In this document: in pieces, positions 9,285 to 21,769 of the stretch | How positions within the stretch are numbered: position 1 is the stretch's first letter | How the letters are laid out: each line of letters starts with the position of its first letter | DNA from: a virus | IMG/VR virus record: IMGVR_UViG_3300044705_000032 | Span: 1-40,537 of that record | DNA length: 40,537 bases | Reading direction: 5' to 3' (one strand) | Translations under genes and position numbers: made by a program | Notes under the pieces: model-generated | Told to the model about the DNA's origin: nothing | What the model saw: only the letters and a program-made list of their open reading frames with translations | Databases searched by the model: none

Positions 9285-9632
9285 ATGACCGGAGATAACG
9301 ACACGATCACGCTCAAGGACGCCGCGAGCCACTTCGGCTTTACGGTATCCACATTGCGCGCGGAAGCCGGTCGGGGCCGCTTGACACTGTACAAGATCGG
9401 CAAGCGATACTACACGACGCCAGCCGACATAAAGAGCATGGTTCAGCAATGCCGCGTCGATCAAAAGGCCCAAGGCTTTACCTTGATCCGAAACGAAAGC
9501 AGTGGGTCATCCGAGACGGCCAGCGCTTCATCCGCACGGGCGCGGGCGAGCGAGATAGCGATGCGGCTGAAAAATACCTCGCGCAGTACATCGGCCACAA
9601 GCATAAGCCGGAAGCATCGAGCGCACCAATGA
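9285..9632 (+). CDS. Excisionase-like helix-turn-helix protein
   Basis: 115 aa. Residues 8-58 form an HTH_17/MerR-like DNA-binding unit: TITLKDAASHFGFTVSTLRAEAGRGRL, then YKIGKRYYTTPADIKSMV. The rest is Ser/Ala/Arg-rich and low complexity. Its last 184 bases overlap the integrase gene in another frame, which explains that bias. Known homologues in rhizobial genomes show the same overlap with an integrase (recalled, not checked). It probably directs excision or controls the integrase. Confidence 0.85.
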   Translation: MTGDNDTITLKDAASHFGFTVSTLRAEAGRGRLTLYKIGKRYYTTPADIKSMVQQCRVDQKAQGFTLIRNESSGSSETASASSARARASEIAMRLKNTSRSTSATSISRKHRAHQ

Positions 9633-10510
9633 TCGCAGACGTTCTTGCCGTCTATGGCGAGGAAGTAGCGCCGCACAGGCGCACGGCGAGCACCATTGGC
9701 TATAAAATCGGCAAGCTTCTGGAATGGTGGGGAGACAAGCGCGTCTCCGATATTTCGGAAAATACTTGCCGGGCCTACGTCAAAGAGCGCGGCAACACCG
9801 GAGCTGGCGCGGACCTAAAGACGCTGCGATCGGCAGTCGGCTATTGGGATAAGAGCGAACAGTACGGGCCGCTGGCGCGAATGCCGAAATTCTGGATGCC
9901 AGAGGAACCGGAAGCGCGGGAACGATGGCTTACGCGGTCGGAAGCGGCGCGGCTGCTTCGCGCAGCTCGGCCCTATCAGCACATCCGCCGGCTGATCCTG
10001 CTCGGCCTCTATACCGGCTCCCGGCCAGGCGTGATCCTCGCGCTCGATTGGTCGCAGATAGACCTACGTTCCGGCGTGCTGATCCGCGCCCGTGGCGCAC
10101 AGGCGAAGAACAAGCGGTCGCCGCGCGCTAAGCTCGGCTGGCGGATTCTGGCGCACCTGAGACGCTGGCATCGGCTAGACGGCGGCAAGGGGCCAGTCTG
10201 CTATCTGGAGGACAAGTGGCATCCAGGGAAGCGGATCGTAGAGGACCCGCACGGCGCTTGGGCGAAGGTCATCAAGGCGTCGGGGCTGGAGGGCGTCACC
10301 CGACATACCCTACGGCATACGCGCGCTACATGGATGGCTCAGAAAGGCGTCAAGCTATTCGAGGCCGCTGGCTTCCTTGGCATGTCCGTCCGCACCTTAG
10401 AGCGCGTCTATGCCCACCACGACCCGGAGCATCAGGAACACGCGGCTAACATAGGGCATATTGTACTTCCCGTACCCAAGTGGTACGAGAGGGCGGGGCG
10501 TAAGTCATGA
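9449..10510 (+). CDS. int: Tyrosine site-specific recombinase (phage integrase)
   Basis: 353 aa. The N-terminal arm-binding part (RLYLDPKRKQWVIRDGQRF) lies in the overlap with the HTH gene, which supports the ATG at 9449. A core-binding SAM-like domain spans about 58-145. The catalytic set is Arg193 (TGSRPGV), His286 and Arg289 (RHTLRHTRATW) and the nucleophile Tyr321 (LERVYAHHDPEH). The usual second histidine position reads GMS (311-313), a change I also associate with this integrase subgroup. It would insert the phage at a chromosomal att site; no attP was identified. Confidence 0.93.
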   Translation: MPRRSKGPRLYLDPKRKQWVIRDGQRFIRTGAGERDSDAAEKYLAQYIGHKHKPEASSAPMIADVLAVYGEEVAPHRRTASTIGYKIGKLLEWWGDKRVSDISENTCRAYVKERGNTGAGADLKTLRSAVGYWDKSEQYGPLARMPKFWMPEEPEARERWLTRSEAARLLRAARPYQHIRRLILLGLYTGSRPGVILALDWSQIDLRSGVLIRARGAQAKNKRSPRAKLGWRILAHLRRWHRLDGGKGPVCYLEDKWHPGKRIVEDPHGAWAKVIKASGLEGVTRHTLRHTRATWMAQKGVKLFEAAGFLGMSVRTLERVYAHHDPEHQEHAANIGHIVLPVPKWYERAGRKS

Positions 10511-11615: not shown

Positions 11616-12569
11616 TCACTCCGCTAATGAGGTTGTGCGGTAGGTGAGGCGCTTACCGCTGATGCCTTTTACAATCCGAGAGGACCGATCTTCGTCATTC
11701 ACGCCAAGCGCGACGCGGTTGTTATACCGGAAATCGAACTCGGCCAGATAGCGTTGCAGATGCTTTTCGGCGCAGTGTTGATAAGTGCCGCGCATGCCGC
11801 GCTTAAACACTGAGAAGTAACCCTCAACGGTGTTAGTGGTTACATCGCCGCGCACGTATTCGTCGGATGCGTGATTGACGGTTTCATGTGCCGCAAAGTC
11901 GCGACCGGATTTGATGTAGAGCCTGCTTTCGTCGGTATGCAGGCGAGATTCAGCGGCAATGTTCTCGCGCACGATCTTGGTGACAGTCTCGCCATCGGCA
12001 ACGGCAGGATGAAACGAGCGAACGCGACCACCGCGTTCAACGAGCGAAAGCACGGCGCGTTTTTTGCCGGGACCGCGGCGATCCTTAGACATCGGCTTTC
12101 CGCTAGTTTTGAACTTACGTAATTGCGATTCCGGGATGTCGCCGAAGTAGGTTTCGTCGGCTTCCACGACCTTGCCTGAGCCGCCGAGCGGGCTCAGGCT
12201 TCCGTCGCGCATTGCTTCGCGGATGCGGTGTCCCATGAACCACGCGGTTTTGAGGGTCACGCCCAAGGTGCGGTGGAGCTGGTTGGCGCTGATGCCCTTT
12301 TTGCTCGACGCGATCAGGAATACGGCCTGTAGCCACAGCCGAAGGGCTACGTGCGACGATTCGAAGACGGTACCCACCTTCACGGTGAAAGGCTTGCGGC
12401 ACTGGTAGCACTTGTAGGTGCCAATGCGGGTGCTTTCGCCTTGCAACTTGGAGATGCGATCAAAGCCTCCGCAGTGCGGGCAAACCGGCCCCTTGGGCCA
12501 CACCCGCTTTTCGAGCCAAGCGTATGCGGCCTCTTCGTCGTGGAAATGGGCGTCTGAAAGGACTGACAT
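11616..12569 (-). CDS. IS1595-family (ISXO2-like) transposase
   Basis: 317 aa, full length. An N-terminal zinc ribbon (CPHC 30-33, CYQC 54-57) is followed by the ISXO2-type DDE domain: VEADETYFGD with Asp138, LHTDESRLY with Asp213, and NTVEGYFSVFKRGMRGTYQH with Glu249 (and Asn246). No terminal inverted repeats could be found by eye on either side, so it may be a solo transposase gene rather than a complete insertion sequence. It runs against the surrounding phage genes and has its own promoter. Confidence 0.9.
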   Translation of the reverse strand: MSVLSDAHFHDEEAAYAWLEKRVWPKGPVCPHCGGFDRISKLQGESTRIGTYKCYQCRKPFTVKVGTVFESSHVALRLWLQAVFLIASSKKGISANQLHRTLGVTLKTAWFMGHRIREAMRDGSLSPLGGSGKVVEADETYFGDIPESQLRKFKTSGKPMSKDRRGPGKKRAVLSLVERGGRVRSFHPAVADGETVTKIVRENIAAESRLHTDESRLYIKSGRDFAAHETVNHASDEYVRGDVTTNTVEGYFSVFKRGMRGTYQHCAEKHLQRYLAEFDFRYNNRVALGVNDEDRSSRIVKGISGKRLTYRTTSLAE

Positions 12570-17130: not shown

Positions 17131-17358
17131 ATGCGTACCGAGCACCTGACAGACGACCAGATCGCCTCCACCTTGCCGGACGGCCTGCGAGATCGCGTTA
17201 TGGTTCAGGCACAAAGGCGGACGGTCGCGCGATCCGGTCTTAGCCGCGAAGGCGAGCTCGCCGCCTCACAGTTTGAATGCGCGCGGCTCGGCATTCCGTG
17301 GGATGCGGAGCAAGATGCGCGTTGGCGGCGGCTCGGCATTCACCCGGATCAGCAGTAA
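17131..17358 (+). CDS. Small hypothetical protein, first gene of the array (75 aa)
   Basis: ATG 17131 behind GGGAG and the rightward promoter. MRTEHLTDDQIASTLPDGLR and onward is a charged helical protein. No family recognised. As the first gene of the operon it is the best candidate for a regulator of it, but no HTH is visible. Confidence 0.55.
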   Translation: MRTEHLTDDQIASTLPDGLRDRVMVQAQRRTVARSGLSREGELAASQFECARLGIPWDAEQDARWRRLGIHPDQQ

Positions 17359-17374
17359 GGAAACGCCCCGAGCC

Positions 17375-17575
17375 ATGCAGATCATCACAAACCCGGATAT
17401 TGCGCAGCCGACAGGCAACGCCGAGATCGACAGCATGATCCACCGTCTGCTGGATGCTCAGCAGGATATTAACTTTGAAGCCAACTCCCGCATGAGCCAA
17501 TCGCTCTGCGACGCATCCGCTCTGATTGACGATTGCGAGCGGTTGTTGCGCAAGCTTGGCGGCCAGAAAGAATAG
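17375..17575 (+). CDS. Small helical hypothetical protein (66 aa)
   Basis: AAGGAAA lies upstream of the ATG at 17375. The product MQIITNPDIAQPTGNAEIDS and onward is mostly helical (NSRMSQSLCDASALIDDCERL). The stop is followed by AGCCCC and the next ATG, the junction style of this array. Confidence 0.55.
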   Translation: MQIITNPDIAQPTGNAEIDSMIHRLLDAQQDINFEANSRMSQSLCDASALIDDCERLLRKLGGQKE

Positions 17576-17579
17576 CCCC

Positions 17580-17846
17580 ATGAAAATTAAGATCGAAGTC
17601 GAGGTCGATCTTTACGACTGGAAAACGCAGAATAAAATGTTTCTGCGTGAGCATGTCGGAGATTTGGACGGCGGCAAGGGACGAAAGTTCAAAATCTCAC
17701 GTCCGGTCGGCGGCATCAATTTGCAAGTTCAACAGGACGGCACGCAGCGAGAGGCAATGGCGAACCTCGCGCCGCTCGTTAAGGCGATGGCCGAGGCCAT
17801 CGTCACTCACGCCAAAAAGATCGACGCCGAAAAGAAGGCTGCGTAA
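17580..17846 (+). CDS. Small hypothetical protein (88 aa)
   Basis: MKIKIEVEVDLYDWKTQNKM opens a small beta-rich domain (KFKISRPVGGINLQVQQDG) followed by a helical, Lys-rich tail ending EKKAA. Its stop codon sits in the first of the repeated hairpins. Family unknown. Confidence 0.55.
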   Translation: MKIKIEVEVDLYDWKTQNKMFLREHVGDLDGGKGRKFKISRPVGGINLQVQQDGTQREAMANLAPLVKAMAEAIVTHAKKIDAEKKAA

Positions 17847-17853
17847 AACGCAG
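17839..17853 (+). repeat. Stop-codon hairpin, copy 1
   Basis: CTGCGT-aaa-ACGCAG, six pairs, spanning the TAA of the 88-aa gene and followed by AAAGGCC. The same hairpin type recurs at 18891, 19062 and 21441 at equivalent positions. Confidence 0.65.
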
Positions 17854-17864
17854 AAAGGCCGGTC

Positions 17865-18104
17865 ATGGACATACAGGCACTCGCCAAGCAGCCGATCAAC
17901 GGCCAGGGCGTTCAGATCGAGAAGCTGCGGCGCAAGCTCAACGACACTGCGCAATTTCTCGACGTGATGGCAAACACCTTGGACGAGTGGGCCGAGCAGA
18001 GCCGGTCGGGCGGCTGGAGCACTCATCAGGTCGAAGCTAATCGCAGCCGCGCAAACGAGTGCCGCCGACAGGCGGCGCACATCCGTTCCATTTTGGAGAC
18101 TTAG
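17865..18104 (+). CDS. Small helical hypothetical protein (79 aa)
   Basis: GAAAGG upstream of the ATG. MDIQALAKQPINGQGVQIEK, then KLNDTAQFLDVMANTLDEW and RANECRRQAAHIRSILET, is predicted to be a helical hairpin. Similar short proteins occur in alphaproteobacterial phages, but no function is known to me. Confidence 0.55.
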   Translation: MDIQALAKQPINGQGVQIEKLRRKLNDTAQFLDVMANTLDEWAEQSRSGGWSTHQVEANRSRANECRRQAAHIRSILET

Positions 18105-18110
18105 GCCCCC

Positions 18111-18281
18111 ATGGAAACGATCTGCGACATGAAGGTAGGGAACGCTTGGGCCGCCCTCGAACGTCTCGCCCGCGAGATTGATCCGAGTCTGCCGGCCGAC
18201 CTGACCGGCAAGGAAATTCGGATCACGCTCAGCAAAGATTGTCAGTCGGTCGAGTGCTACGACCGCGAGCTAACGGATTAG
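18111..18281 (+). CDS. Small hypothetical protein (56 aa)
   Basis: A short frame starting METICDMKVGNAWAALERLA and ending CQSVECYDRELTD. It lies between two TAGGCC junctions (TTAGGCCCCC before, ATTAGGCCC after), in register with the array. Confidence 0.5.
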   Translation: METICDMKVGNAWAALERLAREIDPSLPADLTGKEIRITLSKDCQSVECYDRELTD

Positions 18282-18285
18282 GCCC

Positions 18286-18444
18286 GTGATTGACGCCGAC
18301 AAAGCCTCCGAGATTATCAGTCACGGCATCGCCAAACTGTTCGACAAATACGCATTCACGCCGGTTCCTCAATCCCGGTTCTGGATCGAAATGCGATACC
18401 TCATCCGCGCCGAAATCGAGGCGCTGTCCAAGTTGGAGCAATAG
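18286..18444 (+). CDS. Small hypothetical protein (52 aa)
   Basis: GTG start directly after TTAGGCCC. The peptide MIDADKASEIISHGIAKLFD ... FWIEMRYLIRAEIEALSKLEQ is mostly helical. Its end, GGAGCAATAGGCC, matches the junction sequence at 19307-19319. Confidence 0.5.
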   Translation: MIDADKASEIISHGIAKLFDKYAFTPVPQSRFWIEMRYLIRAEIEALSKLEQ

Positions 18445-18447
18445 GCC

Positions 18448-18639
18448 ATGAAGGCACCAAAGAACCTGCGCGTTGAGCAATGGCCGTATCCGCACCTTCG
18501 GGATGACGAAGGATGCGTTCTCGCTCACGACTACATCGACGATGAAAAGGTGGCGTTCATTCTCGACGCCGTTGCTGAGAAGAGTGGCCGCAGCGCAGTG
18601 CCGCAAGACCTTGGCATGATCGATCGCGGCCTCAGCTAA
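18448..18639 (+). CDS. Small hypothetical protein (63 aa)
   Basis: ATG three bases after the stop in TAGGCCATG. MKAPKNLRVEQWPYPHLRDD and onward has an acidic centre (HDYIDDEKVAFILDAVAEKS). No family recognised. Confidence 0.5.
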   Translation: MKAPKNLRVEQWPYPHLRDDEGCVLAHDYIDDEKVAFILDAVAEKSGRSAVPQDLGMIDRGLS

Positions 18640-18652
18640 CAGGAAACCCCCG

Positions 18653-18901
18653 ATGTTCTCGAAAGACCCGAAGGAAGCCTACAAACAGTTCATGGGCGCT
18701 GCGTCAGCGGCTCTCGCGCCCGACGAGTTTTGGTGCGTCGTCAATGACGAAGGCGTTTTCGAGGGTCACGCATCGAAGGACATGGGCGAAGCCGTCCGGT
18801 CATTCTGTGACGCCCTCGACATTGATTGGGACGAAGCGACCGAAGCCGGGTGCCGGATCGCGGTCGTAAAAATGAACGCTCAAACGGAGGCTGTGCCGTA
18901 G
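18653..18901 (+). CDS. Small hypothetical protein (82 aa)
   Basis: AGGAAA upstream. MFSKDPKEAYKQFMGAASAA, then EFWCVVNDEGVFEGHASKDM, suggests a small alpha/beta domain. Its stop codon is inside the second repeated hairpin. Confidence 0.5.
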   Translation: MFSKDPKEAYKQFMGAASAALAPDEFWCVVNDEGVFEGHASKDMGEAVRSFCDALDIDWDEATEAGCRIAVVKMNAQTEAVP

Positions 18902-18908
18902 CGCACAG
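18891..18908 (+). repeat. Stop-codon hairpin, copy 2
   Basis: CTGTGC-cgtagc-GCACAG, six pairs. The loop contains the TAG stop. Compared with copies 1 and 4 the stem differs at two paired positions, and both partners changed. Confidence 0.6.
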
Positions 18909-18919
18909 AATAGGCCGCT

Positions 18920-19081
18920 ATGACCAAGCCGAGCCAATTTGTGATTGACCGGACGCTCGCCCGCATCGACAGGGAGCGCAAGCGGCTACGCGAGGAGTTC
19001 GACCGGGCAATGGCAAAACTAGATGCGGATGAACGTGAACTGCTTGGAATGAAGCCGGAGGCTGCGCAGAGCGCAGAATAG
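18920..19081 (+). CDS. Small charged coiled-coil protein (53 aa)
   Basis: A short frame after AATAGGCCGCT. MTKPSQFVIDRTLARIDRER leads to a long charged helix (KRLREEFDRAMAKLDADERE). The third hairpin copy lies in its last codons, encoding EAAQSAE. No family recognised. Confidence 0.5.
   Translation: MTKPSQFVIDRTLARIDRERKRLREEFDRAMAKLDADERELLGMKPEAAQSAE
19062..19076 (+). repeat. Stop-codon hairpin, copy 3
   Basis: CTGCGC-aga-GCGCAG, six pairs, just before the TAG at 19079-19081 and followed by AATAGGCCC. Same place, arm length and loop length as copies 1 and 4, with one compensated pair change. Confidence 0.6.
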
Positions 19082-19085
19082 GCCC

Positions 19086-19316
19086 ATGTCCGGCTTGACC
19101 GAGTTCGACTATGCGACAAAGCGGTTCGACGCTGAAATCGCGAAGGTCGCCAACTGGAAGCATGGCTATTTCGGAGCGGCGTATTCGACCCGGCTCCGGG
19201 CGGCGATTGCCGACGCCCGCGCAGCATGTGACCGGCTAGAGGTCGCATTGAACGAGGACGACGAAGCGGGCAAAAAGGCACTCGCAAAGCTCATGTCCAA
19301 ATCTGAGGAGCAATAG
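19086..19316 (+). CDS. Small helical hypothetical protein (76 aa)
   Basis: ATG after AATAGGCCC. MSGLTEFDYATKRFDAEIAK, then AAIADARAACDRLEVALNED, ending MSKSEEQ. Its 3' end carries a linker (AAATCTGAGGAG) shared with the gene ending at 21647. Confidence 0.5.
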   Translation: MSGLTEFDYATKRFDAEIAKVANWKHGYFGAAYSTRLRAAIADARAACDRLEVALNEDDEAGKKALAKLMSKSEEQ

Positions 19317-19322
19317 GCCCCG

Positions 19323-19559
19323 ATGAAAAGCCGCGAAGAAAACAAGGCGCGCGACAAGGATCGGCCGATCATCGTCCATCGTATCGCGCTGCTTGTGCAG
19401 CAATCGACGCACTGTGACGATGACGACGCAATCGACGCGGCGTGGAACGTGTGGGACTACATGGGCCAGCCGGACACGCTCAACGTCTCACCGGAACAAC
19501 TTGACGAGGCTCGCCGCATTCTGCGGAAGCCGCCGCAAGTCGATTTCAAATCTCTGTAG
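19323..19559 (+). CDS. Small hypothetical protein (78 aa)
   Basis: ATG after AATAGGCCCCG. A basic start (MKSREENKARDKDRPIIVHR) is followed by a helical segment and ends VDFKSL. The end overlaps a linker repeated at 20520-20543. Confidence 0.5.
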   Translation: MKSREENKARDKDRPIIVHRIALLVQQSTHCDDDDAIDAAWNVWDYMGQPDTLNVSPEQLDEARRILRKPPQVDFKSL

Positions 19560-19569
19560 GATCACCCCC
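19546..19569 (+). repeat. Junction linker repeat, copy 1
   Basis: TCAAATCT, three variable bases, then TAGGATCACCCCC. It matches 20520-20543 at 21 of 24 positions; both span the end of one gene and the ribosome-site region of the next. Confidence 0.6.
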
Positions 19570-19570
19570 A

Positions 19571-19705
19571 ATGCTCTGCGCTCAGTGCGGCGAGTTATGT
19601 AAAGAGGTTGCGCCCGACCCGAGCGCGGAGCCGCCTGCTGACCTTGGCGGGTTCTGGTGCGAGAAGTGCAAGGAGTTTGTCGAAGTCGAATTTGAAACGG
19701 ATTAG
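19571..19705 (+). CDS. Zinc-ribbon micro-protein (44 aa)
   Basis: A short frame with two CxxC pairs: MLCAQCGELC near the start and WCEKC at residues 29-33. This is a single zinc ribbon followed by an acidic tail (EFVEVEFETD). Likely a nucleic-acid- or protein-binding adaptor; no specific family. Confidence 0.55.
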   Translation: MLCAQCGELCKEVAPDPSAEPPADLGGFWCEKCKEFVEVEFETD

Positions 19706-19709
19706 GCCG

Positions 19710-19952
19710 GTGGGACGAGCAATTCCGAAGGAAGCAATCTCGGTGCGTAAGGCGAAGCCGGCGCCGCACAAGCGCGTCCTGCTTTGGATTTCAAACCGCT
19801 CCGTAGCGATCGAACACATGCCGGTAGTCGGCTGGAACACCCATAGCGATGGGTGGTGGACCGGTATCCCCGGCAACTATCTCAGCCTTGCCGACCTCAA
19901 ATGGAAGGTCACTCACTGGCTGGCTATTCCAGCCCTCGAAGCCGAGGAGTAA
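19710..19952 (+). CDS. DUF551-like small phage protein (80 aa)
   Basis: GTG start at 19710, right after ATTAGGCCG. RVLLWISNRSVAIEHMPVVGWNT, then DGWWTGIPG and KVTHWLAIPALE, fits the DUF551 pattern, which ends VTHW-hydrophobic-P. A third paralogue of the genes at 13730 and 15830-16089. Function unknown. Confidence 0.6.
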   Translation: MGRAIPKEAISVRKAKPAPHKRVLLWISNRSVAIEHMPVVGWNTHSDGWWTGIPGNYLSLADLKWKVTHWLAIPALEAEE

Positions 19953-19959
19953 TACCCCC

Positions 19960-20199
19960 GTGGCGAACTTTGGCACAGCAGAGACACGGCTTAGAGCGCA
20001 GTACCTTGGCGTCGTTACGCTGCTTGGCAAGATCGCGGCGCGGCTTCCGAAGCGCGACGAGGCGCACTACGGGATCGACAAGGCCATCCGTGACGCGAAC
20101 AATTACCTGCTCGTGACGGACGGCGACATCCGTTTTGCTAAATCTTCGGATGGCGGATATGCCGCATTCCCGAGCGACAGCTTCAAAAACGCAGGATAG
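19960..20199 (+). CDS. Small hypothetical protein (79 aa)
   Basis: GTG after GAGGAGTAATACCCCC. MANFGTAETRLRAQYLGVVT, then IAARLPKRDEAHYGIDKAIRD and ANNYLLVTDG. Predicted helical with a short beta end. No family recognised. Confidence 0.5.
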   Translation: MANFGTAETRLRAQYLGVVTLLGKIAARLPKRDEAHYGIDKAIRDANNYLLVTDGDIRFAKSSDGGYAAFPSDSFKNAG

Positions 20200-20206
20200 G
20201 CCGGAA

Positions 20207-20533
20207 GTGCTGCAAGTCGGTCAAACGCTTTGGTTTGAGGGCGCGCACCGCCATAACGCGGGCTTGTCCGAAGTGACCGTCACCAAGGTTGGGCGCAAGT
20301 GGGCGCAGTTGAGCAACCATGAGCGTATCGACGTGCAGACGTTGTACGCCGATGGCGGGCAGTACGTCTCGCCGGGACGCTGCTGGCTATCTAAAGTTGA
20401 GTGCGATGCGGAGGCAAATAGGCAAGCCGCATGGAGTGACTTGGTAAAGATGATACAGCACGCATACCGCGCGCCGGAAGGCGTCTCGGAGGTCAATATC
20501 CGTCGCGCAATCTCGCTTCTCAAATCTGAATAG
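20207..20533 (+). CDS. Small hypothetical protein (108 aa)
   Basis: GTG 20207 after GATAGGCCGGAA; the frame is open further upstream but overlaps the previous gene. An N-terminal beta barrel-like part (QTLWFEGAHRHNAGLSEVTV, TKVGRKWAQLSNHERIDVQT) is followed by helices. The start could be an SH3/KOW-like small barrel (inference). It ends LLKSE in the junction linker. Confidence 0.55.
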   Translation: MLQVGQTLWFEGAHRHNAGLSEVTVTKVGRKWAQLSNHERIDVQTLYADGGQYVSPGRCWLSKVECDAEANRQAAWSDLVKMIQHAYRAPEGVSEVNIRRAISLLKSE

Positions 20534-20543
20534 GATCACCCCC
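20520..20543 (+). repeat. Junction linker repeat, copy 2
   Basis: TCAAATCT, GAA, TAGGATCACCCCC. Second copy of the 19546-19569 linker. The three differing bases are the ones before the stop codon. Confidence 0.6.
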
Positions 20544-20544
20544 G

Positions 20545-20688
20545 GTGGCAAAGAGCAAGGACCGGCCGCGCAAAGAGCGCAAGACAAGCAAAGTCGAGGG
20601 GCGGCTGTTTCGCGACCGGAAGCGCGGCAACCGCGCCCGGCGAAAGCGCACACTTTTTGGACTAAACGTCGATCTAAGCCGAATCTAA
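20545..20688 (+). CDS. Very basic micro-protein (47 aa)
   Basis: GTG start after the linker. MAKSKDRPRKERKTSKVEGR and RDRKRGNRARRKRTLFGL make it extremely Arg/Lys-rich, so it probably binds nucleic acid. No family recognised. Confidence 0.5.
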   Translation: MAKSKDRPRKERKTSKVEGRLFRDRKRGNRARRKRTLFGLNVDLSRI

Positions 20689-20703
20689 AGGAAAACGCCC
20701 GCT

Positions 20704-20883
20704 ATGGGATACATCATCGTCACGCGCAACCCGCGCACCAAGCACGTCATTGCGATTACTGAGGCCACGACCGAGCACGACGAGCATGTGTCCGAATTTG
20801 ACACCGAGGAGGCCGCTGGCGACGAGGCCGCGAAGATACCTGCCTGCCGCGCTTGGGGTTATCAAGTTTTAGAGATCAACTAG
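20704..20883 (+). CDS. Small hypothetical protein (59 aa)
   Basis: AAAGGAAAACGCCCGCT precedes the ATG. MGYIIVTRNPRTKHVIAITE, then an acidic middle (EHDEHVSEFDTEEAAGDEA) and WGYQVLEIN. It looks like a compact beta/alpha fold, similar to many short phage proteins without a name. Confidence 0.5.
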   Translation: MGYIIVTRNPRTKHVIAITEATTEHDEHVSEFDTEEAAGDEAAKIPACRAWGYQVLEIN

Positions 20884-20911
20884 GAGGGTTGGCGAGAGTC
20901 AACAAACGCCC

Positions 20912-21088
20912 GTGGTTAGCTGCACGCTCTGCCAAGGTTACGGGATGGTGGTCTGGAGGACAAAAGATGGCGTCTCCGAGCCCGCCGCCATGACCGAAGC
21001 GGACGAGAACGACATGGACGCCACAAAGTCTCTCTGCCCCGCGTGCGACGGCTCCGGCGAGGAGCCGACAGCAACCGATTTCGTTTAG
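20912..21088 (+). CDS. Zinc-finger micro-protein, DnaJ-type CxxCxG repeats (58 aa)
   Basis: GTG start. SCTLCQGYG near the N-terminus and LCPACDGSG near residue 41 are two CxxC-x-G(x)G units, the pattern of the DnaJ zinc centre. An acidic linker separates them. Probably one zinc site. Confidence 0.55.
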   Translation: MVSCTLCQGYGMVVWRTKDGVSEPAAMTEADENDMDATKSLCPACDGSGEEPTATDFV

Positions 21089-21100
21089 AGGAAAATGCCC

Positions 21101-21448
21101 ATGACGCCAATCGAGGAAATCGCAGCCGAACGTAAGCGGCAGATCGAGAAGGAAGGCTACGACGCGCGGCATGACGACCGTCACGAGAAAGGCGAAATTG
21201 CCCTCGCCGCGTGCTGCTACGCCTCGCCTACGCCTCTCTATTTGAAGGACGAACGGGCGAGCGCCTTCATCATGCGCGACCCTTGGCCGTGGGACGACAG
21301 CTTTGACAAGCGTCCTGTGTATCAAGGTCGCAGCCGGCAACCGGGCTTACTCAGCGCGAAGCTCCGCGACCTGCTCGTGAAGGCGGCGGCACTGCTCGTG
21401 GCCGAGATCGAGCGGCTAGATCGCTCCGCGAAAAGGGAGGCTGCGTAA
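21101..21448 (+). CDS. Conserved phage protein, EIAAERKRQIEKEG type (115 aa)
   Basis: The ATG at 21101 is eight bases after GGA; an ATG at 21095 is too close. Sequence blocks EIAAERKRQIEKEGYDARHD, GEIALAACCYA, WPWDDSFDKRP and LRDLLVKAAALLVAEIERLD belong to a family very common in phages but, to my knowledge, without assigned function. The stop lies in the fourth hairpin. Confidence 0.7.
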   Translation: MTPIEEIAAERKRQIEKEGYDARHDDRHEKGEIALAACCYASPTPLYLKDERASAFIMRDPWPWDDSFDKRPVYQGRSRQPGLLSAKLRDLLVKAAALLVAEIERLDRSAKREAA

Positions 21449-21455
21449 AACGCAG
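21441..21455 (+). repeat. Stop-codon hairpin, copy 4
   Basis: CTGCGT-aaa-ACGCAG, identical to copy 1 over 15 bases and preceded by the same GGCTGCGTAAAACGCAGAAA context. It lies 3.6 kb away from copy 1, across the TAA of the 115-aa gene. Confidence 0.65.
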
Positions 21456-21464
21456 AAAAGGACG

Positions 21465-21647
21465 ATGGCCCGATATAACCCGATGGTGAGCGGCGGCGAT
21501 CCGGTTAAGACCATGCAAGTGCGGCGCGGCCACATCCTCCTTGACCGGGACAACCGCGTAGTCACGGACGAGCACGGCGAGGCGTTCACCTACCCCGACA
21601 ATGACGCGGCAGAAGCCGCAATCCGCAACTTCAAATCTGAGGAGTAA
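21465..21647 (+). CDS. Small hypothetical protein, last gene of the array (60 aa)
   Basis: AAAAGGACG upstream of the ATG. MARYNPMVSGGDPVKTMQVR, then GHILLDRDNRVVTDEHGEAF, ending NFKSEE. Its last codons (AAATCTGAGGAG) repeat the end of the gene at 19086-19316. Confidence 0.5.
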   Translation: MARYNPMVSGGDPVKTMQVRRGHILLDRDNRVVTDEHGEAFTYPDNDAAEAAIRNFKSEE

Positions 21648-21724
21648 AAGGCCGGCGAAATTTCAGCAGCGCGCGATGTTCAGCAAACAGTCGAGCTTGG
21701 ACAAAACGCGGCTTAGAAACGACG

Positions 21725-21750
21725 AAGCCCGGCACGATGGCCGGGCTTTT
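21725..21750 (+). terminator. Hairpin terminator between convergent operons
   Basis: AAGCCCGGC (21725-21733), six-base loop, GCCGGGCTT (21740-21748), then TT: a nine-pair GC-rich stem with T's after it. It lies 78 bases after the last rightward gene and 20 bases before the end of the leftward structural operon, so it may stop transcription from both sides. Confidence 0.8.
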
Positions 21751-21769
21751 GTAATTCATGGTGCGCGTA

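Follow-up and report, generated by a model that had tools for sequence, protein, structure and literature searches.

Repeated hairpins between genes are familiar from the CUUCGG intercistronic hairpins of bacteriophage T4 and from bacterial REP elements. Split ribosome-binding sites, by comparison, are to our knowledge known essentially from two T4 genes. In these genes, 25 and 38, such split (or accommodated) sites were proven by mutations, and in gene 25 also by probing, with the spacing going from 27 nt raw to 11 nt folded in gene 25 and from 22 to 5 nt in gene 38 (PMC3014915, a review through which we also cite the T4 split-site studies of Nivinskas 1999 and of Malys and Nivinskas 2009). 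Short repeats also lie at the starts of many small genes in cluster K mycobacteriophages, where these SAS and extended SAS elements are suspected of a role in initiation and about half of them have an adjacent inverted repeat (PMC3203893).

Here we analysed a 40.5-kb IMG/VR contig (40,537 nt, referred to throughout as the window). Its products, read by eye and named by inspection and not by family search, suggest a temperate, short-tailed phage, with T7-like tail tubular proteins and large internal virion-like proteins (also named by inspection) among them. The host is probably an alphaproteobacterium, because the inserted IS1595 transposase resembles transposases of alphaproteobacterial plasmids and because one protein of the small-gene array is 56% identical to a relative in Bradyrhizobium phage BDU-MI-1. 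The landmarks are the following:

9449-10510: tyrosine integrase, named by inspection.
11616-12569: inserted transposase, IS1595-like.
17131-21647, plus strand: about 20 small genes (44-117 aa) packed into a tight array; almost none belongs to a known family.

Among nine array products searched, only that of the gene at 21101 had a clear PHROG match, and all matched families are of unknown function; for the product of the gene that ends at the first hairpin (W1, below) no relatives were found in IMG/VR. Directly 3' of the array, AAGCCCGGCACGATGGCCGGGCTTTTG (21725-21752) looks like its intrinsic terminator. A similar stretch (..TTTATTCTTCAATGATT..CGCTAAGTCATTGATG) lies 3' of the arrays of two phages, at 8395-8445 in L010 and at the array end in L143, and could be either a small gene or a control region.

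A sequence-only reading of this DNA had noted that four array genes end in a six-pair hairpin at the stop codon, followed by AGAA and AGG. All four were found as described, at 17839, 18891, 19062 and 21441, and AGAA followed by AGG is present 3' of each; the hairpin encloses the stop codon in W1, W2 and W4, and in W3 the stop follows it at 2 nt. A fifth junction, W5, which that reading did not list, has the layout of W2-W4 with a hairpin unrelated in sequence. The five junctions are:

17834-17853, plus strand: W1, GAAGG and hairpin CTGCGT-AAA-ACGCAG (17839-17853); stop TAA at 17844-17846, next start at 17865, with a near Shine-Dalgarno (SD) sequence of its own, AGAAAGG, at 17852-17858.
18886-18908, plus strand: W2, SD GGAGG and hairpin CTGTGC-CGTAGC-GCACAG (18891-18908); stop TAG at 18899-18901, next start ATG at 18920, GGAGG-start distance 29 nt raw and 11 nt folded.
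19057-19076, plus strand: W3, SD GGAGG and hairpin CTGCGC-AGA-GCGCAG (19062-19076); stop TAG at 19079-19081, upstream protein ending in EAAQSAE, next start ATG at 19086, distance 24 nt raw and 9 nt folded.
21436-21455, plus strand: W4, SD GGAGG and the same hairpin as W1, CTGCGT-AAA-ACGCAG (21441-21455); stop TAA at 21446-21448, next start ATG at 21465, distance 24 nt raw and 9 nt folded.
20882-20903, plus strand: W5, SD AGGAGG overlapping the stop TAG (20881-20883), and hairpin GTTGGC-GAGA-GTCAAC (20888-20903); next start GTG at 20912, distance 24 nt raw and 8 nt folded.

The four listed hairpins have a common unit, with GGAGG (GAAGG in W1) directly 5' of the stem and AAWAGG directly 3' of it; this makes it longer than in the sequence-only reading, where GGAGG went unmentioned. 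No Rfam family scored above its gathering threshold anywhere in the window. The 3' half of the element also occurs twice on its own account: AAAACGCAGGATAGGCCG (20186-20203, plus strand) carries it at a stop, lacks the 5' arm and does not fold into a hairpin, and AAAACGCAGAATAAAATGTTTCTGCG (17622-17648), within a gene, repeats it with an inverted repeat of its own.

We consider it probable, at roughly two chances in three, that each hairpin serves as a folded spacer within a split ribosome-binding site. The upstream gene's final codons (GAG-GCT, Glu-Ala) would supply GGAGG, the SD sequence of the next gene, and the 15-18 nt after it, in or beside which the stop codon lies, would fold into the hairpin. 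GGAGG, 22-29 nt from the next start when unfolded, would thereby come to 7-12 nt from it, the ordinary junction spacing of these arrays. In vivo the 30S subunit would use GGAGG across the folded hairpin, and ribosomes that pass or terminate would open the hairpin, adjusting the downstream gene in this way. As part of this reading, the commonest hairpin form also spreads as a junction cassette, from gene to gene and from phage to phage.

When the 19 window junctions were scored for pairing with the 16S rRNA tail, the best SD ended 5-13 nt 5' of the start in 15 of them; that some ordinary junctions work with only a weak TAGG counts against the split-site reading. At the W2, W3, W4 and 20912 (W5) junctions the best SD, at -8.6 to -10 kcal/mol, ranks with the strongest in the array and lies more than 20 nt from the start, with a hairpin occupying the intervening stretch at each of the four; nearer start codons are impossible there, because in each case no start codon precedes the used one in its frame. 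Across six array phages only a distant strong SD is present at 7 of 121 junctions, and six of these seven have a 6-7 bp hairpin fitted between SD and start, against a hairpin rate of 0.8-2.6% in control contexts. The folded spacing (7-12 nt) matches the direct SD spacing of the same arrays (8-15 nt, p 0.39) and the raw spacing (22-29 nt) differs from it (p 3e-5), in a comparison that is partly circular, as junctions from the hairpin scan were required to have 4-13 nt 3' of the stem, and from which the L010 and L172 copies were excluded; among nine copies that came from sequence matching only, seven fall at 9-12 nt.

Taken junction by junction, a strong SD more than about 15 nt from the start with no adequate nearer SD is found at W2, W3, W4, W5 and at the junctions in L143 and L277, and not at W1. 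There GAAGG before the hairpin is weaker and the near AGAAAGG is good, so that the hairpin of W1 may be dispensable. Folding, expected under a split site to leave about 5-11 nt, leaves 7-12 nt, except in two copies that misfit the folded-spacer geometry, L172 and L010, whose next starts lie 33 and 19 nt 3' of the hairpin. There are competing pairings too: in L143 the SD bases GGAG could pair with CUCC 3' of the hairpin (P unpaired 0.2), and at two L279 junctions and in L152 competing pairs reduce the hairpin probability.

The same geometry bears on two other uses for a hairpin at a gene end. Hairpins in this position recall REP elements, and the sequence-only reading had proposed, among other roles, that they stabilise mRNA ends. 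In that case they would guard the upstream messages from 3' exonucleases, or act as processing sites or separate the expression of neighbouring genes. However, the stems are short (-6 to -8 kcal/mol), and they stand flush 3' of GGAGG and 7-12 nt 5' of a start, neither of which end protection needs; no specific support for this proposal emerged, and we consider it improbable. Intrinsic terminators or attenuators have a still smaller claim, close to negligible: a pattern scan does flag W1 and W4, on the minus strand, but on the transcribed strand no T-run follows the hairpin (AGAAAAGG, AGAATAGG), so that the hairpins do not qualify as members of that class, and all the genes go on downstream on the same strand.

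Selection could instead act on the C-terminal peptide that the unit encodes (EAA or EAAxxAE), which might be a degradation tag, and the hairpin would then be a by-product of the codons. The reading frame through the unit is indeed constant in all members (GAG-GCT-G, or AAG-GCT-G in W1), and the W1 and W4 proteins end in AA. Yet the ends vary (KAA, EAA, EAVP, EAAQSAE, EAAPRAE, EAAAKAE, EADAKSD), the hairpin is largely non-coding in W1, W2 and W4, and that of W5 lies wholly 3' of the stop, which makes a peptide signal highly improbable.

How far chance could account for the hairpins depends on what is counted. Perfect 6-bp hairpins occur near 4 of 20 array stops, against a mean of 2.2 at random array positions, and single fold energies are unexceptional against shuffles (z -0.5 to -1.5), whereas the repeated 25-nt sequence has two matches with at most three mismatches, against none in 100 shuffles. 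Hairpins at stops are thus by themselves within chance in this GC-rich array, and a chance origin stands for them in general; the common sequence and the geometry are beyond chance, which is ruled out as the source of the common sequence. The stems also bear out the earlier observation that changes on one arm are matched on the other. Four of the six stem pairs vary on both arms, 95.8% of cells pair, and the covariation score of 0.476 compares with a mean of 0.151 for shuffles and with no more than 0.125 after sliding; one row of this alignment was obtained by searching for hairpins and W2 has a second possible alignment, and two-sided changes remain at three pairs without the former row and at two without W2 as well. 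Pairing is therefore kept in relatives despite sequence change, less strongly without the doubtful rows.

Relatives were sought by pattern scans of IMG/VR, which placed the CTG-family unit in five other small-gene-array phages, on genes that are otherwise unrelated:

G001/G002 (L010, L011): shares 26 identical nt with W4 and closes a homologous gene (44% protein identity).
G005 (L172): identical to W3.
G003 (L143): identical to W3; the AGG after the hairpin is lost, GGAGG and hairpin are kept.
G004 (L152): loop altered.
G006 (L216/L279): CTGCC-GCGAA-GGCAG.

Eight further hits (L136, L148, L163, L182, L183, L191, L221, L232) were judged from their sequence context to be chance matches. An exact 19-nt core had one match in 84,980 species genomes, about the chance expectation; the annotated phages searched held no true copy, a match in Mesorhizobium phage Cp1R7A-A1 being rejected as it lies inside a long gene; and no convincing new phage came out of searches by pattern for ATAGGCCGCNATG junctions or the TTGGC-GTCAA hairpin. 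The general SD-hairpin-start layout was not enriched in the unrelated phage contigs scanned, and is therefore specific to this phage group, whose arrays represent only a few phages.

A different kind of gene end recurs alongside these units, and is the following:

19298-19325, plus strand: hairpin-free gene-end cassette CAAATCTGAGGAGCAATAGGCCCCGATG, with the SD directly in the last codons (KSEEQ and stop), common to L279/L216.

A scan for this cassette (TCTGAGGAGYAATAGGCC) reached one other IMG/VR contig only, G006, which itself has three hairpin junctions. The recurring end TTCAAATCTGAGGAG.. (FKSEE, KSEEQ) is seen at 19298-19321, 20520-20535 and 21631-21653 of the window and at 1690-1720 of L279; its SD falls within the final codons, it lacks a hairpin, and in phage G006 it sits on another gene. 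At two junctions (19557-19570 and 20531-20544) TAGGATCACCCCC resembles the 16S rRNA 3' end itself, GGATCACCTCC, and not its complement, which may be coincidence.

A rival explanation is that the units are gene-junction linkers, either short conserved gene-end sequences by which recombination shuffles tiny genes or spreading small palindromic repeats, with a hairpin that has no function in RNA. W3 and its copies in L172 and L143 are identical over 24 nt on unrelated genes, W4 and L010 share 26 nt and have proteins that are 44% identical, L279 shares the hairpin-free cassette too, and in L010 and L172 the element is present with no start at a suitable distance, as might be expected of recombination linkers or their remnants. 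What such linkers leave unexplained are the matched changes on both arms, a spacing that fits only when folded, and the unrelated hairpins that occupy the same SD-start position. These last, with stems outside the CTG-family search, are found at 20888-20903 in the window and in two related phages, at L277:10506, L279:1170 and L279:3214. We consider this linker explanation unlikely.

The sequence-only reading, which held that the hairpin had been copied as a unit, was partly supported overall. Copying holds for the CTGCG family, common to unrelated genes and phages, and not for the unrelated hairpins in the same place; it is therefore the geometry that is conserved, not one copied hairpin. The hairpin is missing from L002 and L003, the nearest homologues of the W4 gene; this tells against that reading on the surface only, as an ordinary SD next to the start takes its place. 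Selection on RNA structure gained support, as did control of downstream initiation, both now with a concrete SD-hairpin-start geometry. Beyond the split site as such, we tentatively propose a portable translation module, a possible though less than even prospect, in which interchangeable gene-end cassettes, with a direct or a hairpin-bridged SD, would be a general means of setting the expression of each following gene in dense tiny-gene phage operons, the hairpin form responding to ribosomes that cross the upstream stop. For annotation, start predictors that expect an SD at 5-13 nt would miss or misplace such starts. Recurrence four to five times in one array with unrelated hairpins, and again in other phages, offers natural replicates on how folded spacers set initiation.

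Compared with known systems, the junctions are closest to T4 genes 25 and 38, in which SD, hairpin, a short spacer and the start likewise follow one another where two genes meet, the distances going here from 24-29 to 8-11 nt; the same scan, run on T4 as a positive control, returned GAGG, a 7-bp hairpin, 8 nt and the gene 25 ATG at the gene 26-25 junction. Like the cluster K SAS, they are short repeats at junctions of small phage genes with an inverted repeat, but the SAS is GGGATAGGAGCCC, its SD-like part lies within a 13-bp repeat and its 17-bp inverted repeats lie upstream, whereas here a short hairpin stands between SD and start; identity with SAS or ESAS was rejected, since the junctions read AATAGGCC or AGGAAA and not GGGATAGGAGCCC. 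The T4 CUUCGG hairpins and REP elements are not known to have the defining geometry of an SD directly before and a start directly after the stem. The split ribosome-binding site itself is a known kind of signal, and what we describe is probably a repeated, portable variant of it. In T4 two separate genes have one hairpin each, whereas here four or five copies stand in a 4.5-kb array of a phage with presumed alphaproteobacterial hosts, read from sequence alone. Several of the hairpins are unrelated and one form is common to unrelated genes and phages, and as far as the literature searched shows, it is new that the signal repeats within a single array, that its stems vary and that one form has spread in this way.
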